From a virus, in IMG/VR virus record IMGVR_UViG_3300032322_001039, positions 1-41,100 of that record: a stretch of 41,100 bases of DNA. The stretch is one strand, 5' to 3'. The notes beneath the pieces were generated by a model that was given only the letters and a program-made list of their open reading frames with translations, ran no database searches and had not been told where the DNA came from. This document shows positions 1,997 to 19,660 of the stretch, piece by piece. Every line of letters begins with the position of its first letter. The first letter of the stretch is position 1. Made by a program: the position numbers and the translations under genes.

Positions 1997-2886
1997 CATC
2001 AGTTCTACGTTCGTGCGATGTTCGCGTGGGCGGCGAGATTGATACACACTATTTGATCTTCTGTCCATTTCACTACAATGTAAATACTCCTGCATGTGAA
2101 ATAGACAAGACTAGTGGGCTATACATTTGCTTCTCATGCGGAGAAAGCGGCAGCCTGACAGATCTAGTTATGAAGACAACCAAGAGAAACTTCTTTGAGG
2201 CATCACGGGTAATTCATTCTGCATCTGCCACCACCGACATACTAAGCGTGGTGAATATGGAACTGAGCAAACTTCCAGATGACCAACTAGAGGAATTTGA
2301 CTCATCAATCATTCTCAGACTTCATGAAAGTCTTTTAGATAACCAAAAAGCCATAGATTATTTTCGGGGTAGAAAGATCTATATGGAGGCGGTTATGGAA
2401 ATGAAGTTGGGTTATTCTGCCAAGCAGAACATGGTTACCGTTCCTATTCAAGATCAGTACGGAATGTACGTTGGAATGGTGGCCAGGTCTATTGAGGGCA
2501 AGTCGTTTAAGAACTCAACTAATTTGCCACGCAAGCATGTTCTTTTCAATCTAAATAGATCTAAGTTAAACGATATTGTAGTTGTAGAATCTACCTTCGA
2601 TAGCATCCGTCTTTGGCAACTTGGAATTCCGTCCGTGGCAACTCTTGGATCTAATATATCAGGAAATCAGATTCTTCTGTTAAATAAGTATGCTAATAAG
2701 ATTATGCTTTGCCCAGACAAAGATAGTGCTGGACAAAAGATGGTAACAAAAGTTAGTGAAAAACTGACTAACAAGCAAATAACTATTATGGATGTCGGAG
2801 AGGCTAAAGACATAGGAGACTTATCCGATTCAGAAATTATGACGCTCTGGAAAAATGCTTGTTCCAATAACGAAATATCGGTATAA
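1933..2886 (+). CDS. dnaG: DNA primase, DnaG-type (zinc finger plus TOPRIM)
   Basis: 317 residues. The N-terminal CHC2-type zinc site is visible as C44, H47, C66 and C69 (CPFH ... CFSC). A TOPRIM domain follows, with its glutamate E219 in IVVVES and the acidic pair D262/D264 in PDKDSAG. Together they predict synthesis of RNA primers for lagging-strand replication with the DnaB-type helicase encoded upstream. The protein is about half the length of bacterial DnaG and lacks an obvious helicase-interaction domain, as in many phage primases. The start lies inside the preceding ORF. Confidence 0.9.
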   Translation: MFSRRFTKQSNTKEFYSDEQIASVLRSCDVRVGGEIDTHYLIFCPFHYNVNTPACEIDKTSGLYICFSCGESGSLTDLVMKTTKRNFFEASRVIHSASATTDILSVVNMELSKLPDDQLEEFDSSIILRLHESLLDNQKAIDYFRGRKIYMEAVMEMKLGYSAKQNMVTVPIQDQYGMYVGMVARSIEGKSFKNSTNLPRKHVLFNLNRSKLNDIVVVESTFDSIRLWQLGIPSVATLGSNISGNQILLLNKYANKIMLCPDKDSAGQKMVTKVSEKLTNKQITIMDVGEAKDIGDLSDSEIMTLWKNACSNNEISV

Positions 2887-2887
2887 T
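2882..2887 (+). promoter_or_regulatory. Possible -10 box (TATAAT) before the ssDNA-binding protein gene
   Basis: TATAAT overlaps the primase stop codon. It lacks the TG extension. A weak TTGTTC lies 17 bases upstream as a possible -35. The downstream gene has a strong ribosome binding site (AGGAGGA, about 2920-2926) and a 40-odd-base leader, compatible with a promoter here. Confidence 0.35.
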
Positions 2888-2932
2888 TAATCAACCGACC
2901 CATCTACAGGGTCAAATATCAGGAGGAATATT

Positions 2933-3589
2933 ATGGGAGTTATTACAGGTTTAGCGGGTATTAAGAAGAAGATGGAGCGTCCAGTAATTTCTGATACGCC
3001 CCGTGCAAGGTGGCTAAAGGTTGAAGATGGACAGAGCGTAAAGATTCGCTTTATTAATGAAATTGATCCAGATTCCCCAAGTTATGACCCAAAGCGTGGT
3101 CTCGCAATTGTTGTTGCAGAGCACACCAATCCAAAGGATTATCGCCGCAAGGCTGTCTGCACCCTAGATGATGAGGGTCGCTGCTTCGGATGTGAGATGC
3201 ATCGTAAAGATCCAAAGGCTGGCTGGAAGTCTCGCCTACGATTTTACTGCAATGTTCTAGTGGATGATAACTCTGGAGAGCAATACACAGCAGTTTGGTC
3301 ACAGGGAGTAAGTTCCAAGTCTCCCACTACAACAATGCTTATTGAGTATGCAGCAGACACAAACTCAATCACGAACCTCACATGGAGGCTAAAGCGTTCT
3401 GGAACTGGTACACAAACCAGTTACGCACTGATTCCGCTTGCTACAGACAGTGAGAAGTTTGACTGGTCCGCAATTGAACCCTATGAACTGGACAAGGTTG
3501 CAATCAGGAATATTTCTTATCCAGACCAAGAGGCTTTTTACATGGGCCTTGATGTAGATACAACAACATCTACCGCCGTTGAGTGGTAA
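2933..3589 (+). CDS. Putative single-stranded DNA-binding protein
   Basis: 218 residues with a very good ribosome binding site (AGGAGGA ending 7 bases before ATG). The protein has a basic N-terminus, an OB-fold-like central part (SVKIRFINEI ... RFYCNVLVDD) and a possible zinc pair (C-x2-C in RCFGCEMHRK). It ends in an acidic, Thr-rich tail, similar in outline to phage ssDNA-binding proteins such as T4 gp32. It lies between primase and polymerase, and the strong Shine-Dalgarno suits an abundant protein. The function is inferred from overall pattern and context, not from a decisive motif. Confidence 0.65.
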   Translation: MGVITGLAGIKKKMERPVISDTPRARWLKVEDGQSVKIRFINEIDPDSPSYDPKRGLAIVVAEHTNPKDYRRKAVCTLDDEGRCFGCEMHRKDPKAGWKSRLRFYCNVLVDDNSGEQYTAVWSQGVSSKSPTTTMLIEYAADTNSITNLTWRLKRSGTGTQTSYALIPLATDSEKFDWSAIEPYELDKVAIRNISYPDQEAFYMGLDVDTTTSTAVEW

Positions 3590-3605
3590 TTCTTGATCCT
3601 GTGGC

Positions 3606-3632
3606 GGGCGGTAGGATATACTCTTACCGCCC
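3606..3632 (+). repeat. 8-bp inverted repeat around a TATACT box upstream of dnaE
   Basis: GGGCGGTA (3606-3613) pairs perfectly with TACCGCCC (3625-3632) across an 11-base loop that contains GGATATACT, a possible -10 box. No U-tract follows, so it is not a classic terminator. It could be a terminator of the upstream operon without a U-tract, or an operator over a promoter. A ribosome binding site GGAGAGG follows, before ATG 3651. Confidence 0.5.
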
Positions 3633-3650
3633 ACTACTATTTGGAGAGGT

Positions 3651-6600
3651 ATGTTTCATAACCATCATTCACATTCTTATTACTCGCTTCTAGATGGATA
3701 CTCGTCCCCACTAGAACTTATGCAGCGCGCTGCCGAAATTGGCATGGGGGCAATGTCCATTACCGACCACGGCTCGCTGAGCGCACATAGAGAGTTGCTA
3801 AAGGCTGGCGCAGAAACTGGCGTTAAGCCCATTCTTGGCCTTGAAGCATATTTCACACCAGATAGATTAGATAAGAGATCCAAGAAGGATCGTACGCCAG
3901 ATGATCAGATCTACAACCACCTAATCATTCTTGCCAAAAACGACAATGGGCTGGCTAATCTTAGTAGGCTGTCTGAGATGGCTTGGAATGATGGTTTCTT
4001 CGTTAAGCCTCGCATGGACTTTGAATTGCTAGATAGGCATAATAAAGATCTCGTAGTTCTCTCTGGCTGCATGAATGGAATCATTGCTAAGGCAATTGAG
4101 AATGGAAATTGGGCTATGGCTAGACAACATGCCCTTTGGTTCAAGGAGGTGTTCGGTGATGATTTCTATATGGAGTTGCAGCCACACAATCCAGCAAGTC
4201 TGAATTTGGCTTTGCTAGAACTAGGAGACACACTTGGCATCAAGTCTACTGTGACATTGGATTGCCACTACGCATCTCCTAAGGATCGGGTGGCAGAGGA
4301 AATCATGCTTATCCTTGGGACACATCCCAAGATTCAGAAGGAGTCCTCATTCGAAGGCAGCAAGAAGTATGCAGATGTCATGGATAAACTTGACTATCTT
4401 TATGGAGAAAGAGGCATGTCCTTCAAAGACTTAGATATCTGGCTTATGGATTTTGCAGATGTCCGCACTCGTATGGAGGCTCAGGGAATCTATCGTGATG
4501 ATCTCTATGCCAACAGCATGGAAATATCGGATAAGGTTTCTCAATACGAGCAAAAAGAAAATCTAGATCTGCTTCCGGTCAACCATGAAAGTCCAGATGC
4601 AGAACTTGAAAGACTAGCAATTGCGGGTCTAAAGCAAAGAGGATTGCTGGATAAAGAAGAGTATCGTCAAAGACTTAACGACGAACTATCTATTATCAAA
4701 TCAAAGAACTTCTCTTCATACTTTATTATTGTGTCGAATATGATTGCCTGGGCAAAGCAAAATGGGATTCTTGTTGGCCCAGGAAGAGGGTCTTCGGCAG
4801 GAAGTCTGCTGTGTTATGCACTAGGCATCACAGAGGTAGATCCAATTGAATACGGACTACTATTCTTTCGATTCATCAATCCTGAACGAAACGACTTTCC
4901 TGATATTGACGTAGACTATGAAGATCGTCGTCGCGGAGAAGTGAAGCAGCACCTGATTGACAAATATCATAATGTTGCCTCAATTGCTACCTTCCTAACC
5001 TTTAAGGACAAGGGTGTTGTTCGTGACGTTGCTAGGGCACTTAATGTCCCACTAACAGACGTTAATAAGACTCTTAAGAATATCGAAACATGGGATGAGT
5101 TTATCGGTTCAGAGTCTACTAGAGAATTCAGAAAGAAGTATCCAGAAGTTGTAGACTACGCTGACAAGTTGCGAGGAAGAATCAGAGGCACTGGCGTCCA
5201 TGCCGCAGGCATTGTTACATCTAAGATAGAACTGAGTAATGTTGCTCCCATCGAAACTAGAAAAGACACTCAGGGTGATGGAAGAATCCCCGTTGTCGCG
5301 GTAGACATGGAGCAGGCGGCTGAAATTGGACTAATCAAGATCGATGCGCTTGGCCTGAAAACTCTGACGGTTATCAAGGACGCTCTAGATATTATTCGTA
5401 ACAGAACTGGCGAGGTGATTGATCTACAGAACCTAAAACTGGACGACCCAGAAGTGTTTGCTGATATATCTGCTGGTCATACGAAGGGTATATTCCAGGC
5501 TGAGGCCGCCCCATACACAAACCTTATTCTTAAGATGGGCATTAGCAACTTCAATGAACTTGCAGCCTCCAATGCCCTTGTTCGTCCAGGTGCAATGAAT
5601 ACAATTGGTGCAGACTATGTAAAAAGAAAGAAGGGGCGTCAGGCAGTCAAATACGTCCATCCTATTATGCAGCAATTTACACAAGATACATATGGCTGTA
5701 TTCTTTATCAGGAACAGGTCATGCAGGCGTGTGTTTATCTAGGCGGCATGACAATGGCAGAGGCAGACAAGGTTCGAAAAATTATTGGCAAGAAAAAGGA
5801 TGCCAAAGAGTTTGATCAGTTTAAGGACAAGTTCGTTGACGGCGCTTCTGAGCACATCAGCAGAGAGGCAGCAGAAAAACTATGGCACGACTTCGAAGCC
5901 CACGCGGGATATTCGTTTAATAAAAGCCATGCCGTTGCCTACTCTATGCTTAGTTACTGGACCGCATGGCTTAAGCACTACTACCCGCTTGAGTTCATGT
6001 ATTCCCTACTGAAGAATGAGTCGGACAAGGACACTAGAACTGAATACCTAATTGAGGCAAAGAGAATGGGAATTAGAATTCTTCTTCCACATGTTAATGA
6101 GTCAGAGATTGATTTTGCAATTTCTGGTAACTCTATTAGATTTGGCCTTGGGAATATCAAGTATGTGTCAGAGAACATCGCTAACAAGATCATGGAAAGT
6201 AGGCCATTTACATCCTATCAACAGTTTCTAGAGATTTCTTCAAGTAAGGGATCTGGCATCAACAGCCGCGCTGTAGCAGTCCTGAACAGAATTGGTGCGC
6301 TGGCATTTGATGACAATCCTCGCACTGGTGAGGAAAAGAATTATTTGTACGAGTACCTTAACGTGCCAGAATTTAATGCAGACATTCCAAGGTATCTTGA
6401 TGCCTACATTAAAACTCTAGATGACTATGATGAGCGTGGCTCTTTTATTATCCTTGCTATGGTAAAGTCCATTAAGCGTGGCCAAGGTTGGTCAAGAGTT
6501 GAGGTTGTAGACAAGACTGGAACCGCTGGCATTTTTCATGACGAAGATACACAGATTGAGTCTGGTAAGATGTATCTGTTTCTTGTAAGTAACAATAGAA

Positions 6601-15942: not shown

Positions 15943-16016
15943 CGGAATGTGGCGCAGTTTGGTAGCGCACTTGCTTTGGGAGCAAGGGGTCGAAGGTTCA
16001 AATCCTTTCATTCCGA
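15943..16016 (+). tRNA. tRNA-Pro (TGG)
   Basis: Acceptor CGGAATG/CATTCCG pairs over 7 bp. The D arm (GCGCAGTTTGGTAGCGC), anticodon stem-loop CTTGC-TTTGGGA-GCAAG with anticodon TGG, and T arm (GAAGG-TTCAAAT-CCTTT) all fit. CCA is not encoded. It reads CCA codons, and probably other CCN codons, depending on wobble modification. Confidence 0.95.
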
Positions 16017-16017
16017 C

Positions 16018-16110
16018 ATGAAAAATAAACTTTTGATACTATTTATCGGCGTGGTGTTTGGCTGGGCCTTTGCTGATAGATTTATGAGAGAAAATGGAAA
16101 TCCACACTAA
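16018..16110 (+). CDS. Tiny membrane protein (30 residues)
   Basis: ATG lies two bases after the tRNA-Pro 3' end. The protein is Lys-start then a hydrophobic segment (LLILFIGVVFGWAFA) and a short polar tail, so probably one membrane span or an uncleaved signal. It overlaps the next gene by 17 bases. No ribosome binding site is possible outside the tRNA, which lowers confidence. Confidence 0.45.
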   Translation: MKNKLLILFIGVVFGWAFADRFMRENGNPH

Positions 16111-16279
16111 CGATGAATGCCAAAAACATTGGCGAGAAATATTTGCATCTCAGATAGAGAGTACGATAAACTCTTACTACCCGCAAGAAAACGATCATGA
16201 TAGAGATAGAATAAGATGGTTTCTTGAGGGCCTACGTTATGCATCAATGATAATTCGGTGGGATGAGACAGAAGAATAG
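16094..16279 (+). CDS. Hypothetical small protein
   Basis: 61 residues, acidic, ending in WDETEE; its stop abuts the following tRNA-Gln. Weak GAGAGAAA lies just before the ATG. No recognised motif. Confidence 0.65.
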   Translation: MEIHTNDECQKHWREIFASQIESTINSYYPQENDHDRDRIRWFLEGLRYASMIIRWDETEE

Positions 16280-16350
16280 TGCGGGATTGTGTAATGGCAG
16301 CACGACAGTCTTTGGAACTGTTTGTCTAGGTTCGAATCCTAGTCCCGCAG
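16280..16350 (+). tRNA. tRNA-Gln (TTG)
   Basis: Acceptor TGCGGGA/TCCCGCA with discriminator G, anticodon stem-loop ACAGT-CTTTGGA-ACTGT with anticodon TTG, and T arm CTAGG-TTCGAAT-CCTAG. The U1-A72 pair and G73 match known tRNA-Gln. CCA is not encoded. It reads CAA and CAG. Confidence 0.95.
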
Positions 16351-16364
16351 CGTAATATCAACAA

Positions 16365-16373
16365 TGATAAAAT
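16365..16373 (+). promoter_or_regulatory. Extended -10 box (TGaTAAAAT)
   Basis: TGATAAAAT lies 23 bases before the GTG at 16397. The predicted leader contains a strong ribosome binding site AAGGAGG (16386-16392). It probably drives the small zinc-protein gene and perhaps the tRNAs behind it. Confidence 0.45.
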
Positions 16374-16396
16374 AGTCATATACACAAGGAGGTGCT

Positions 16397-16642
16397 GTGG
16401 AAACAGCAGTCATGCAGGCCGAAAAAACTGAAAAGCCCAGCCACGGAATTCTTACCAAACTGGATCGGTGTGATCATGGAAACTGTCCAGCACAAGCATT
16501 TGTATTAATTAAATTTGAAACTGGTAGTCTATATTTCTGCGGCCATCACTTTAATAAAGTAGAAGCCTCTATTTATGAAAAAGCCCTTGACATCATAGAC
16601 GAAAGGGATACAATTAACCCTAAGTCAGAATCATCTGCATGA
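16397..16642 (+). CDS. DUF7455-like small zinc-binding protein
   Basis: 81 residues from GTG 16397 with AAGGAGG upstream. The core LDRCDHGNCPAQAFVLIKFE ... LYFCGHHFNK has Cys/His ligands and the CGHH motif typical of a small protein family common in actinobacteria and their phages (DUF7455, as I recall). Function unknown. Its presence supports an actinobacterial host. It sits inside the tRNA cluster. Confidence 0.8.
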   Translation: METAVMQAEKTEKPSHGILTKLDRCDHGNCPAQAFVLIKFETGSLYFCGHHFNKVEASIYEKALDIIDERDTINPKSESSA

Positions 16643-16647
16643 TTCGA

Positions 16648-16722
16648 TGGGCGGTATCCTAGTCTGGTTTTGGAAGCGGTCTTATAAGCCGTGTATCGTG
16701 GGTTCAAATCCCACCCGCCCAA
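16648..16722 (+). tRNA. tRNA-Ile (TAT)
   Basis: Acceptor TGGGCGG/CCGCCCA, anticodon stem-loop GCGGT-CTTATAA-GCCGT with anticodon TAT, and T arm GTGGG-TTCAAAT-CCCAC. The next three bases are CCA, so the 3' end is encoded. It should read the ATA codon, which is frequent in this window and rare in GC-rich actinobacteria. The exact first base may be one off. Confidence 0.88.
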
Positions 16723-16726
16723 CCAA

Positions 16727-16799
16727 GCCCTTGTAACTCAGAGGATAGAGTAGTGGACTTCTAATCCATTAGTCGCTGGTTCGAATCCAGCCAAGGGCG
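16727..16799 (+). tRNA. tRNA-Arg (TCT)
   Basis: Acceptor GCCCTTG/CAAGGGC, anticodon stem-loop TGGA-CTTCTAA-TCCA with anticodon TCT, and T arm GCTGG-TTCGAAT-CCAGC. It reads AGA and AGG. AGA is used very often in the phage genes here. Confidence 0.95.
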
Positions 16800-16803
16800 C
16801 TAA

Positions 16804-16874
16804 GCGAACGTTGCATAATGGTAGTGCCTCTGCCTTCCAAGCAGACGGTGTGGGTTCGATTCCCATCGTTCGCT
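16804..16874 (+). tRNA. tRNA-Gly (TCC)
   Basis: Acceptor GCGAACG/CGTTCGC, anticodon stem-loop TCTGC-CTTCCAA-GCAGA with anticodon TCC, and T arm with GTTCGATTC. Discriminator T is followed by an encoded CCA. It reads GGA and GGG. Confidence 0.95.
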
Positions 16875-16878
16875 CCAA

Positions 16879-16952
16879 GCCTCAGTAACTCAGTTGGCCA
16901 GAGTAGCCGCCTTGTAAGCGGCAAGTCATCGGTTCGAATCCGATCTGAGGCT
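16879..16952 (+). tRNA. tRNA-Thr (TGT)
   Basis: Acceptor GCCTCAG/CTGAGGC, anticodon stem-loop CCGC-CTTGTAA-GCGG with anticodon TGT, and T arm ATCGG-TTCGAAT-CCGAT. It reads ACA. A T-rich stretch (CTTCTTTTTG, about 16963-16972) follows and may help end the tRNA transcript. Confidence 0.95.
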
Positions 16953-17030
16953 CGCACGGTCCTTCTTTTTGTTTGCCATCCGTTAATATTCGTGATATTC
17001 TATTAAGGTTGCCGCCAATAGGAGGTTAAC

Positions 17031-17630
17031 ATGACGACAAAAAACCGAATTGGAGTAGCAGTAGTAAGCACTATGACTTTAGTGTTTTCTCTGCTTACAC
17101 CAACGGCGTATGCTAAGTCTGCGCCTATGGCGGAAGGGTCAGCAAACGTTGCTGCTCTACCGTTTTTACCAACTTCCTCTGCTGAGGCACCGTCAGTCAA
17201 GGTGGAGAAAAAGAAGAAGGTAAAGAAGTGGAAGTGTAAGAACCAATTGGCCAACTGGCTTTATGGTGCGGGATTCCGTGGCCATAATCTCAGAGAAGCC
17301 TGGACCATCGCAATGAGGGAGAGTAATGGTACTAACCTTGGGCCTGGAATGTCTGGATTTAATGGACATGACTACGGCTTGTTCCAATTTAATCGTGGAG
17401 CATGGGGTGGTTCGTCTTGGTGGAACACAGCGAACTTGCTGACACCAGAATATAATGCGTCTATCGCATTTAAATTGAGTAGCGGAGGAAAGTCGTGGAT
17501 TCCTTGGGGCATGAGGGATCATGGGCAATTCGATACTCAAAGTTACGCGGGCATTTGGTCTAGCGATCAGTTTTATGCTTGGGTAATTGAACCATATCAG
17601 CGTTACTATGCCCAATATCCATGTAAGTAA
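17031..17630 (+). CDS. Secreted lysozyme/transglycosylase-like cell wall hydrolase
   Basis: 199 residues, ribosome binding site AGGAGG 5 bases upstream. A Sec signal peptide is clear: basic start, hydrophobic core VAVVSTMTLVFSLL, and cleavage after AYA (residue 28). A lysine-rich linker (59-68) leads to a transglycosylase-like domain with the probable catalytic Glu97 in AMRESNG and the GLFQF motif at 116-120. It resembles Rpf/lytic transglycosylase folds secreted by actinobacteria. It probably cuts peptidoglycan, as an exported endolysin or to remodel the wall of the infected cell. C69 and C198 could form a disulphide outside the cell. Confidence 0.85.
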   Translation: MTTKNRIGVAVVSTMTLVFSLLTPTAYAKSAPMAEGSANVAALPFLPTSSAEAPSVKVEKKKKVKKWKCKNQLANWLYGAGFRGHNLREAWTIAMRESNGTNLGPGMSGFNGHDYGLFQFNRGAWGGSSWWNTANLLTPEYNASIAFKLSSGGKSWIPWGMRDHGQFDTQSYAGIWSSDQFYAWVIEPYQRYYAQYPCK

Positions 17631-17640
17631 ATAGCAAGTC

Positions 17641-17686
17641 GGTGGCGAGGAAACACAATCAAATGTGCGGCAACACCCTCGCCATC
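17641..17686. repeat. 10-bp inverted repeat upstream of tRNA-Met
   Basis: GGTGGCGAGG (17641-17650) pairs with CCTCGCCATC (17677-17686) with one G-T pair across a 26-base loop; CACA/TGTG inside the loop could form a second small stem. It lies three bases before the tRNA. It has no T-run, so it may be a processing or stability element rather than a terminator. Confidence 0.55.
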
Positions 17687-17689
17687 TAA

Positions 17690-17761
17690 GCCTCTGTGGT
17701 GAAATGGCTATCACAAGGGACTCATATCCCCTTAGTTCAAGTTCGATTCTTGACGGAGGCA
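17690..17761 (+). tRNA. tRNA with CAT anticodon (Met elongator or Ile2)
   Basis: Acceptor GCCTCTG/CGGAGGC, anticodon loop CTCATAT with anticodon CAT, and T arm TCAAG-TTCGATT-CTTGA. The last anticodon-stem pair is an A-C mismatch. It does not have the initiator-type GGG/CCC anticodon stem. A CAT tRNA may be elongator Met, or Ile2 if its C34 is changed to lysidine; sequence alone does not settle this. Confidence 0.9.
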
Positions 17762-17762
17762 C

Positions 17763-17794: not shown

Positions 17795-19000
17795 ATGCGG
17801 ATTGGTTTTGGGTCTACCGACTGGGGTGACCACGTTCAGGCTCAACCTGGCGGCTGTACACACATGCGCTGTATGATTCCTGCTCATGGCCTTAGACAAA
17901 TAGGCCATGAAGTTGGTGTGGGAGAAATAGGATGGAAAGACGGCGAGGGATTTGTAATAGTTCCCCCAGTAGAAAAACTTAAGTTTGGTAAGACTGGAAT
18001 TGTAACAACATATGACGAGCATTTTGATAAACTTGACGTAGTTGTCCTAAAGTTGTTTATGCATAAGGATTCAGAAAAATATATAACTAAGGCCAGAGAA
18101 TATGGTCAGACGGTAATCATTGATACAGACGATCATTTCGAACAACTGCCACCAGACAATATGGCATTTCACACCACTGATCCCAAGAACTCTCCAGACA
18201 ACAATAGGAACTTTCTTATCAACAATTATTCAAAGGTTGATGGCATTATCGCCAGCACAAAGTTTCTTGAGCAAAAATCTTTAAGACACAATAACAATGT
18301 TTACAGAGTGCCGAACTCACTGATTCCAGAAACTTTTTATTTCAGGCAAGACTTCTCTGGCTGGAATCCAACGATTGGCTGGGTAGGAATCATGTTATGG
18401 AGAGTCGAAGACATCAAGGAGGTCGGAGCGCCGCTAAAAACATTTCTAGAAAAATATGATCTTAAGTTTCATCATTCTGGTATTGTTCTAACGAGAGAGA
18501 AGTGGTTCGCTGAAGAGGCAGGATTTAATCCAGATAGAATGTCTGGATATGTCGGAGCAAGACCAGAATATTATGGCAACTTGTTTATGCCAATTGATAT
18601 TGGCATAGTGCCACTGACAAATAATCCGTTCAATGAGGCAAAGAGTTGTCTAAAGGGAATGGAGTATGCTTTGAGTGGAATCCCATTCGTTGCGTCGGAT
18701 ACTCAGGAATACCGCGATCTTGCAGAAATGGGATGTGGTAGGATAGCCAAGAAGCCGCGCGACTGGATTAGGCATTTAGAAGAACTTAGAGATCCAGAAG
18801 TTAGGAAGCAGGAAAGAATTAAGAATTACGAAGTGGTTGTAAAAAATCTAAGTCTGTTTATGATGAAGTATAAGTGGTCCGAAGCGATTGAACTGATTCA
18901 CATGAATGCACAAAAGAATAGAATTAAGCCAAAACCTAAGCCACAAATCACGGGGCAGAAAGGTTTCGACCCTAGCAAGTTTCTAGTCGCACAAAACTAA
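17795..19000 (+). CDS. GT-B fold glycosyltransferase (GT4-like)
   Basis: 401 residues from ATG 17795; longer readings start inside the tRNA and are rejected. The N-terminus MRIGFGSTDWGDHVQAQPGG resembles the donor-accepting opening of GT-B enzymes, and the C-terminal domain has the nucleotide-sugar motif region NEAKSCLKGMEYALSGIPFV followed by a DTQEYRDL segment. It should transfer a sugar from a nucleotide donor. It lies 6 kb away from the main sugar block, beside the tail genes, so it may glycosylate a virion protein. The last 49 bases overlap the 5' end of the tmRNA. Confidence 0.88.
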   Translation: MRIGFGSTDWGDHVQAQPGGCTHMRCMIPAHGLRQIGHEVGVGEIGWKDGEGFVIVPPVEKLKFGKTGIVTTYDEHFDKLDVVVLKLFMHKDSEKYITKAREYGQTVIIDTDDHFEQLPPDNMAFHTTDPKNSPDNNRNFLINNYSKVDGIIASTKFLEQKSLRHNNNVYRVPNSLIPETFYFRQDFSGWNPTIGWVGIMLWRVEDIKEVGAPLKTFLEKYDLKFHHSGIVLTREKWFAEEAGFNPDRMSGYVGARPEYYGNLFMPIDIGIVPLTNNPFNEAKSCLKGMEYALSGIPFVASDTQEYRDLAEMGCGRIAKKPRDWIRHLEELRDPEVRKQERIKNYEVVVKNLSLFMMKYKWSEAIELIHMNAQKNRIKPKPKPQITGQKGFDPSKFLVAQN

Positions 19001-19175
19001 CAAACATAATAAACGGCAACTCACAAAACGCCTTCGCACTAGCAGCATGATAGTGCCGCGCAGCAATCGCGTGGGAACAGAAGATTGCATTCGTAGTACA
19101 ATAGTAGTTATAGCAACACAACGTTAGGACTAGAAATAAATTAGCGGGACGGCGGTTCGATTCCGCCCTGCTCCA
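18952..19175 (+). ncRNA. ssrA: tmRNA (SsrA), short phage form
   Basis: The 5' end GGGGCAG pairs with CTGCTCC (19168-19174) and includes the G3-U70 pair recognised by alanyl-tRNA synthetase. GGTTTCGAC near the 5' end and GGGACGGCGGTTCGATTCCGCC at the 3' end are the conserved tRNA-like parts. The tag reading frame at 19015-19050 encodes GNSQNAFALAA and stops at TGA; ALAA at the end is the classic protease tag. At 224 nt it is much shorter than the usual 350-400 nt, so pseudoknots are probably lost. CCA is not encoded. Some actinobacteriophages are known to carry tmRNA. It would rescue stalled ribosomes and tag their products. Confidence 0.88.
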
Positions 19176-19186
19176 CAGGAGGAAAA

Positions 19187-19660
19187 ATGCCATACGATAT
19201 TAGACAAAACTACAGAGGTAAGTCTGGATATTCAGTTGTTGGTCCAGATGGAACCGTTCGTGGAACACATTCATCTCGCCGTGCGGCAATTGAGCAACAG
19301 CGCGCACTGTATGCTGCTGAGTCGGGAATGAAGAAGGATGCTGGGGAACTTTACGAACAGTTGACCCCAGACGAGAAAGAATTTCATGATGCACTCGCTG
19401 CGATTGCTGAGAAGTATGGAAAATTCGATGAAGATGGCAGCGGGATTTGGGCAGGATACGATCCACCAGAAAGAAATCCAGAAGCCGAAATTGGAGTTAA
19501 GTGTGGAAACTGCTCGTTCTATGAGGGCAATGGTATGTGTCACATCATAGCCTTCCAAGTAGAAGAAAATGGTAAGTGCCGTCTTGCAGCAATTCCAGAT
19601 GGTTATGTAAACTATAATGTCATGAAGAGAGACTTCTGGGGCGGCAGGTTTACTAACTAA
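19187..19660 (+). CDS. Hypothetical protein with cysteine-rich C-terminal domain
   Basis: 157 residues with AGGAGG just after the tmRNA. The N-terminal part (MPYDIRQNYRGKSGYSVVGP ... SRRAAIEQQRALYA) is a small basic domain. Residues about 105-140 carry C-x2-C ... C ... C (CGNCSFYEGNGMC ... GKCRLAAIP), similar to high-potential iron-sulfur-like domains seen in phage structural proteins. Role unknown. Confidence 0.78.
   Translation: MPYDIRQNYRGKSGYSVVGPDGTVRGTHSSRRAAIEQQRALYAAESGMKKDAGELYEQLTPDEKEFHDALAAIAEKYGKFDEDGSGIWAGYDPPERNPEAEIGVKCGNCSFYEGNGMCHIIAFQVEENGKCRLAAIPDGYVNYNVMKRDFWGGRFTN

Follow-up and report, generated by a model that had tools for sequence, protein, structure and literature searches.

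A tmRNA frees stalled ribosomes and marks the unfinished proteins on them with a peptide tag. The tmRNA of Escherichia coli, encoded by ssrA, is 363 nt long and has four pseudoknots, and PK1 was long regarded as the only one of them that tagging requires. Four pseudoknots are usual in the standard bacterial tmRNA (Rfam RF00023), not strictly required, and the evidence that PK1 is dispensable has so far come from engineered E. coli RNAs: an E. coli tmRNA with PK1 swapped for single-stranded RNA still tags efficiently (PMC4236655).

Among phages, tmRNA has been annotated in the Streptomyces phage Phredrick (OR553903; 268 nt, tag ANSNFALAA), and RF00023 scores 88 bits in two of the three Streptomyces phages searched (Phredrick and Faust, NC_070783), with no match in Coruscant. 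BE-cluster (Stanwilliamsviridae) phages, the group of Phredrick and Faust, are known to carry tmRNA (PMC5764925). A more extreme reduction is found in mycobacteriophage DS6A, where little remains beyond the tRNA-like domain (TLD; PMC4131195). Literature searches on phage tmRNA with pseudoknots, phage-encoded tmRNA and Stanwilliamsviridae found no paper.

The RNA described here lies on a 41.1-kb IMG/VR virus record, the whole of which (41,100 nt) is referred to as the window. Like its counterparts in Phredrick and Faust it is a one-piece phage tmRNA near a tRNA cluster, with a tag ending in ALAA, a pseudoknot after helix 5 with the loop GGAACAGAA, and a related terminase on the same genome. The Phredrick RNA differs in being 43 nt longer and in having a weakly scoring PK1 candidate before the tag (in a simple pseudoknot search, shuffles equal it in 10% of cases), and its neighboring ORF ends just before the tmRNA, whereas that of the window overlaps it. 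With the standard bacterial form the window RNA shares G3-U70, the T arm, helix 2, the resume codon context, the tag, and a helix 5 containing the stop, but one pseudoknot is recognized instead of four, PK1 is lacking, and CCA is not encoded. Like the RNA of DS6A it is a reduced phage tmRNA, yet it has a full tag frame, and as the tag is both present and conserved, a TLD-only inhibitor RNA of the DS6A type is ruled out. The engineered PK1-less E. coli RNA of Wower et al. 2009, as cited in PMC4236655, likewise has a single strand in place of PK1; that RNA is man-made, whereas the loss in the window is natural.

Identity and fold of the window tmRNA

ARAGORN calls a one-piece tmRNA at 18952-19176 on the + strand (as are its parts, the glycosyltransferase gene and the downstream gene described below), with the tag GNSQNAFALAA followed by two stops, and RF00023 matches 18952-19178 over its full model length with 49.2 bits (E 1.4e-16), barely above the cut-off of 47. 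An earlier note, made from the letters alone, had read a phage tmRNA here and proposed a covariance-model search; the two programs agree with it, as do 17 compensatory pairs across seven sequences. The encoded mature part is 224 nt (18952-19175), ending at the discriminator A at 19175, and the bases 3' of it belong to the ribosome-binding site CACAGGAGGAAAAATG of the next gene. In the acceptor stem, GGGGCAG (18952-18958) pairs with CUGCUCC (19168-19174) in all seven sequences, with one compensatory pair, and the G3-U70 alanine signature that the note had pointed out is invariant among them. The T arm GGCGG-UUCGAUU-CCGCC (19151-19167) has compensatory changes in three of its five pairs. The G3-U70 alanine acceptor stem, UUCGAC and the T arm of the RF00023 standard form are all present. 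The pieces run 5' TLD, tag, 3' TLD, and a permuted or two-piece tmRNA is ruled out, as no 3' acceptor piece is encoded upstream of the coding piece. By these features the RNA is a genuine member of the tmRNA family, a derived phage form that is apparently intact. It belongs with the standard one-piece tmRNAs of RF00023, and its transcription, processing, alanine charging, SmpB binding and tagging of proteins are predicted.

The fold was assessed on an alignment of seven sequences, the window and six alignable relatives, with a structure of 43 pairs. Pairing is found in 96.7% of the structure cells and 17 pairs are changed on both sides, compared with 0-2 in a control with partners slid by 1-3 columns. 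These compensatory changes occur in the acceptor, T arm, P2, P5, S1 and S2. The long helix 2 (P2), which links the tRNA-like and mRNA-like parts in RF00023, is present here in two parts, nt 21-24 with 190-193 and nt 28-37 with 177-186; the 5' strand lies at 18972-18988 and the 3' strand at 19128-19144, and six of the 14 pairs are compensatory. The tag frame ends within helix 5 (P5, GCACUA/UAGUGC, 19036-19056), where the loop carries the stop codon, and pair 87-103 of this helix is A-U, U-A, C-G or U-G across the members.

The tag frame (19015-19050) begins at nt 64 with the resume codon GGC and ends in TGA, with TAG following. The tag GNSQNAFALAA proposed by the earlier note is the one called by ARAGORN, and the family also has NNNQNAFALAA (L031), GNTQATFALAA, ANTQNNLALAA, GTNRQSFALAA and NNNINNYALAA (the more diverged L178), those of L031 and L178 being read by eye (ARAGORN missed both). 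The first part of the tag therefore drifts between members while the ALAA end is kept in all. Nucleotide 60, the A at position -4 relative to the resume codon, is described as the main determinant of frame (PMC2481249) and is invariant in all eight sequences. A tag with a hydrophobic degron end, a stop in helix 5 and the A at -4, the combination expected from that work, are thus found together.

Where PK1 would be expected there is instead an A-rich single strand of 26 nt (18989-19014); PK1 is absent from the window tmRNA. One candidate from a pseudoknot search, formed of CUAG/CUAG and AGUUU/AAACU, was rejected, as it uses the 5' strand of P2 and has no counterpart in L067 or L177. Just after helix 5, at the PK2 position, lies an H-type pseudoknot (19057-19088), in which S1 joins nt 106-110 to 118-121 and 123 with a one-base bulge, S2 joins nt 112-117 to 132-137, and the third loop is GAACAGAA. 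Compensatory changes occur in five of the six pairs of S2 and in one pair of S1 (C-G to U-A in L067), and the loop AACAGAA is invariant, including in Phredrick and in two longer relatives described below, L195 and L197. The claim that pseudoknots had been lost is thus right for PK1 and wrong at the PK2 position, where the covariation of S1 and S2 also leads us to reject a reading with no pseudoknots at all. This is the one pseudoknot recognized, against the typical four; none was recognized for PK3 or PK4 in the course of the analysis of the other folds, and an A/U-rich stretch runs from the pseudoknot back to helix 2.

Two less favorable readings of this RNA have to be weighed against such a pattern of conservation. 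It could be the decaying remnant of a once longer phage tmRNA that is neither made nor used any more, as its shortness, low covariance score, missing PK1 and absence from many close relatives might indicate; however, compensatory changes in all seven helices across the seven sequences and a tag intact in every member argue for continued selection, and we consider a relic very improbable. It could also be a decoy that binds SmpB and ribosomes, tags poorly without PK1 and so dampens host trans-translation, as proposed for DS6A. The absence of PK1 is in line with this, as is the inhibition of host tmRNA by TLD-only RNAs of the DS6A type (PMC4131195, PMC11915505). Yet a decoy needs no tag, while here every member has retained the tag frame, its stop, ALAA and the A at -4 as the letters between them change, and the engineered PK1-less RNA of PMC4236655 still tags; a decoy therefore seems improbable, if less so than a relic.

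Codons shared with a glycosyltransferase gene

The gene upstream of the tmRNA encodes a glycosyltransferase of 401 aa (phrog_7162, E 1.3e-26; 17795-19000), the last codons and stop of which lie inside the tmRNA. Alignment with relatives defines its start and tail, and translation probably begins at 17795 (MRIGFGST..., as in the relatives) and not at 17696; a tRNA-Met gene (17690-17762) lies inside the over-long form of this ORF. The overlap (18952-19000) reads GQKGFDPSKFLVAQN and a stop, the TAA at 18998-19000 corresponding to tmRNA nt 47-49. That the first 49 bases serve both genes, as had been noticed from the window, is exact there and conserved in seven members: in 7/7 the frame runs into the tmRNA in one common phase and reaches its stop at nt 49, despite a variable preceding linker. 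The overlapped peptide is GQKGFDPSKFL-V/A-A/T-Q/K-N/T, with I for the first K in one member. P-S-K-F-L is kept despite seven variable bases, with Ser as AGC, TCG or TCA and Leu as CTA or TTG, and several of the synonymous changes in the overlap also preserve helix 2 pairing. Given the changed positions, 3.2-4.5 synonymous codon changes are expected and 7 of 12 are found (P about 0.0005-0.004, from hand-listed events in seven related sequences), whereas most of these changes would alter the amino acid if either of the other two frames were read. This is moderate evidence, and it suggests that the overlapping codons are under selection and that the glycosyltransferase tail is translated.

The frame might still enter the tmRNA by accident, as passive read-through giving a tail without a role. 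The tail is not part of the conserved glycosyltransferase, its counterpart in relatives lacking the tmRNA is short and unrelated, and in L178, where the two genes also adjoin, the frame ends already at tmRNA nt 8, an overlap of 8 nt only. Against an accident stand the shared frame and stop in all seven members, the retention of P-S-K-F-L through different serine codons, and the codon test. We judge passive read-through the less probable alternative, though one with an appreciable chance of being right. The short overlap in L178 also indicates that the adjacency predates the long overlap or is found more widely. Genes other than the window's downstream gene directly follow the tmRNA in L033, L067 and L177, so the constant unit is the glycosyltransferase-tmRNA pair and not the downstream neighbor.

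The earlier note argued further that maturation of the tmRNA must cut the glycosyltransferase mRNA. This applies to transcripts that span both genes but not otherwise, and the relevance of a cut at the tmRNA 5' end hinges on the existence of a separate tmRNA promoter. A putative one lies just upstream (TTCACA-16-TAGAAT, 18897-18924), but such sites are about as many as in shuffles (7 against 7.9) and by eye this one is not conserved.

The window's downstream gene (19187-19660) encodes 157 aa with no assigned function, its ribosome-binding site directly following the tmRNA 3' end. A TAYAAT box is conserved within the family in the 3' portion of the RNA that is left unpaired, at 19097-19102 in the window (nt 146-151), at nt 148 in L067 and L177 and at nt 156 in L178 (family span nt 146-161); as speculation, it may be a promoter of the downstream gene or an element of the tmRNA. 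Relatives without the tmRNA have, by eye, a TATAAT-like box before the downstream gene at the same junction. Seven tRNA genes lie 1.2-3 kb upstream of the tmRNA. Between this cluster and the glycosyltransferase gene a lysozyme-like protein (SLT_3, PF18896) is encoded at 17031-17630, and genes are tightly packed across 15943-17762, with ORF starts touching tRNA ends and an ATG just after tRNA-Pro.

Relatives, descent and size

Relatives were gathered from viral contigs through the downstream protein, the terminase and DNA patterns. Identity to the window tmRNA is 97% in L030 and L064, 84% in L032, 83% in L031, L049 and L066, and 76% in L033 and L067, and L177 (alignable) and L178 are additional members. 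RF00023 gives 52.6-67.4 bits in L033, L067, L177 and L178 and 43.5-46.3 bits, just below 47, in four other relatives' records. In the relatives L034-L054 the glycosyltransferase and downstream genes are kept without a tmRNA at the same junction, and its absence from many close relatives implies that the tmRNA is dispensable to the phage.

The window tmRNA has no DNA similarity to isolated phages, tRNA-Pro being the only match in a 20-kb stretch. Compared with Streptomyces phages of the BE type (Stanwilliamsviridae), the window terminase shows ~61% identity. In L195 (260 nt, ANTQNAFALAA) and L197 (258 nt, GVTQNALALAA) the tag is almost that of the window, and the pseudoknot has the loop GGAACAGAA seen in the window and in Phredrick. 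By eye, both also retain a PK1-like fold ahead of the tag, for which there is enough space and complementarity. These two metagenomic contigs bridge the gap between the window family and the Streptomyces phage tmRNAs. On the simplest reading, PK1 was lost and the 3' half shortened in the lineage of the window, making its tmRNA, as judged from these comparisons, a derived, PK1-less form of the Stanwilliamsviridae type. Another phage tmRNA, L194:10431-10680, apparently lacks PK1 too; its tag GEYQLAA, of seven residues, is not related to the tags of the window family. As the resume codon here is likewise at nt 64, PK1 loss may have happened more than once.

The earlier note proposed a candidate for the smallest functional tmRNAs, a claim that does not survive comparison with bacterial metagenome-assembled genomes (MAGs), where shorter standard tmRNAs of 208-212 nt occur. 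Scanning of 84,980 species genomes with a pattern for tmRNA-shaped sequences ~202-232 nt long, the counts from which are lower bounds because the pattern demanded exact letters at conserved sites, gave a tmRNA of 208 nt (tag ANSELALAA), the sole full tmRNA found in that Gemmatimonadetes MAG (L170), one of 212 nt in an Aeromonadales MAG (L175) and one of 210 nt with an odd tag (L173). The L170 RNA, on a 92-kb bacterial contig, resembles that of the window in being very short, one-piece and well tagged, but with a PK1 candidate kept and no good pseudoknot downstream of the tag it is the opposite of the window RNA. The usual range of tmRNA is 230-400 nt according to a review (PMC3968760), and the window tmRNA is at the low end of size but not the smallest.

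Some matches from these searches are of separate note. L175 carries tmRNAs of 212 and 267 nt (2856-3067 and 3580-3846) with the same tag, ANDETYAVAA, 0.5 kb apart, possibly through duplication or island insertion. On a Nakamurella contig (L172:7095-7325), a stretch resembling a tmRNA 5' end precedes a tRNA gene, and the 3' end of that gene supplied the rest of the pattern; an insertion may have left a 5' fragment of a tmRNA there. The match in L155 was discarded, being elsewhere on the contig and not at a tmRNA. Three viral tmRNA-like stretches of 248-255 nt with conserved tmRNA ends (L183:4506-4753, L187:3809-4058 and L190:2412-2666) were not called by ARAGORN, which likewise missed L031 and L178, and short phage tmRNAs are thus probably under-counted.

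Predicted action and wider meaning

The explanation we favor, and hold to be probable, is a PK1-less phage tmRNA that uses host enzymes and whose 5' end doubles as glycosyltransferase codons. The general steps, covered by a review, are 5' end formation by RNase P, 3' trimming, charging by AlaRS, SmpB binding and tagging (PMC3968760). In the window, RNase P would cut the 5' end and host enzymes would trim the 3' end and add CCA, after which host AlaRS would charge the RNA through G3-U70. Host SmpB would be needed to carry it to stalled ribosomes, as no SmpB was found in the window or the other phage records searched (16 records, including Phredrick, Coruscant and Faust). Alanine and the tag would then be added, the ribosome released at UGA, and the tagged product directed by its ALAA end to host proteases of the ClpXP type. 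An older result, quoted in that review, that tagging requires PK1 (PMC3968760) counts against this explanation, while the E. coli result in PMC4236655 makes a natural PK1-less tmRNA plausible. The sequence, conserved structure, tag, overlap and relatives are matters of observation; that the RNA is transcribed, processed, charged and used for tagging, and that it might feed back on the glycosyltransferase, we infer.

Where a transcript runs across both genes, it could serve as the full glycosyltransferase message or, once cut, as tmRNA, and cutting would leave a non-stop glycosyltransferase mRNA that is itself a tmRNA substrate. A bolder proposal, which we think rather unlikely, is that the 5' quarter of this natural PK1-less tmRNA is an actively selected coding end that ties ribosome rescue to a phage sugar-transfer gene through a built-in switch or feedback. 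If true, each spanning transcript would yield either a complete glycosyltransferase mRNA or, after RNase P cleavage, a tmRNA, and cleavage would make a non-stop message that the same tmRNA would tag.

What makes this locus interesting is that PK1 was lost in nature and that the 5' end has a conserved second use; its size is no record. A natural lineage without PK1 but with a PK2-like knot provides a test of which folds trans-translation needs. In the overlap, a single stretch of RNA is shared with a protein gene, an uncommon arrangement that is conserved here and yields a simple, testable prediction about RNase P cutting.
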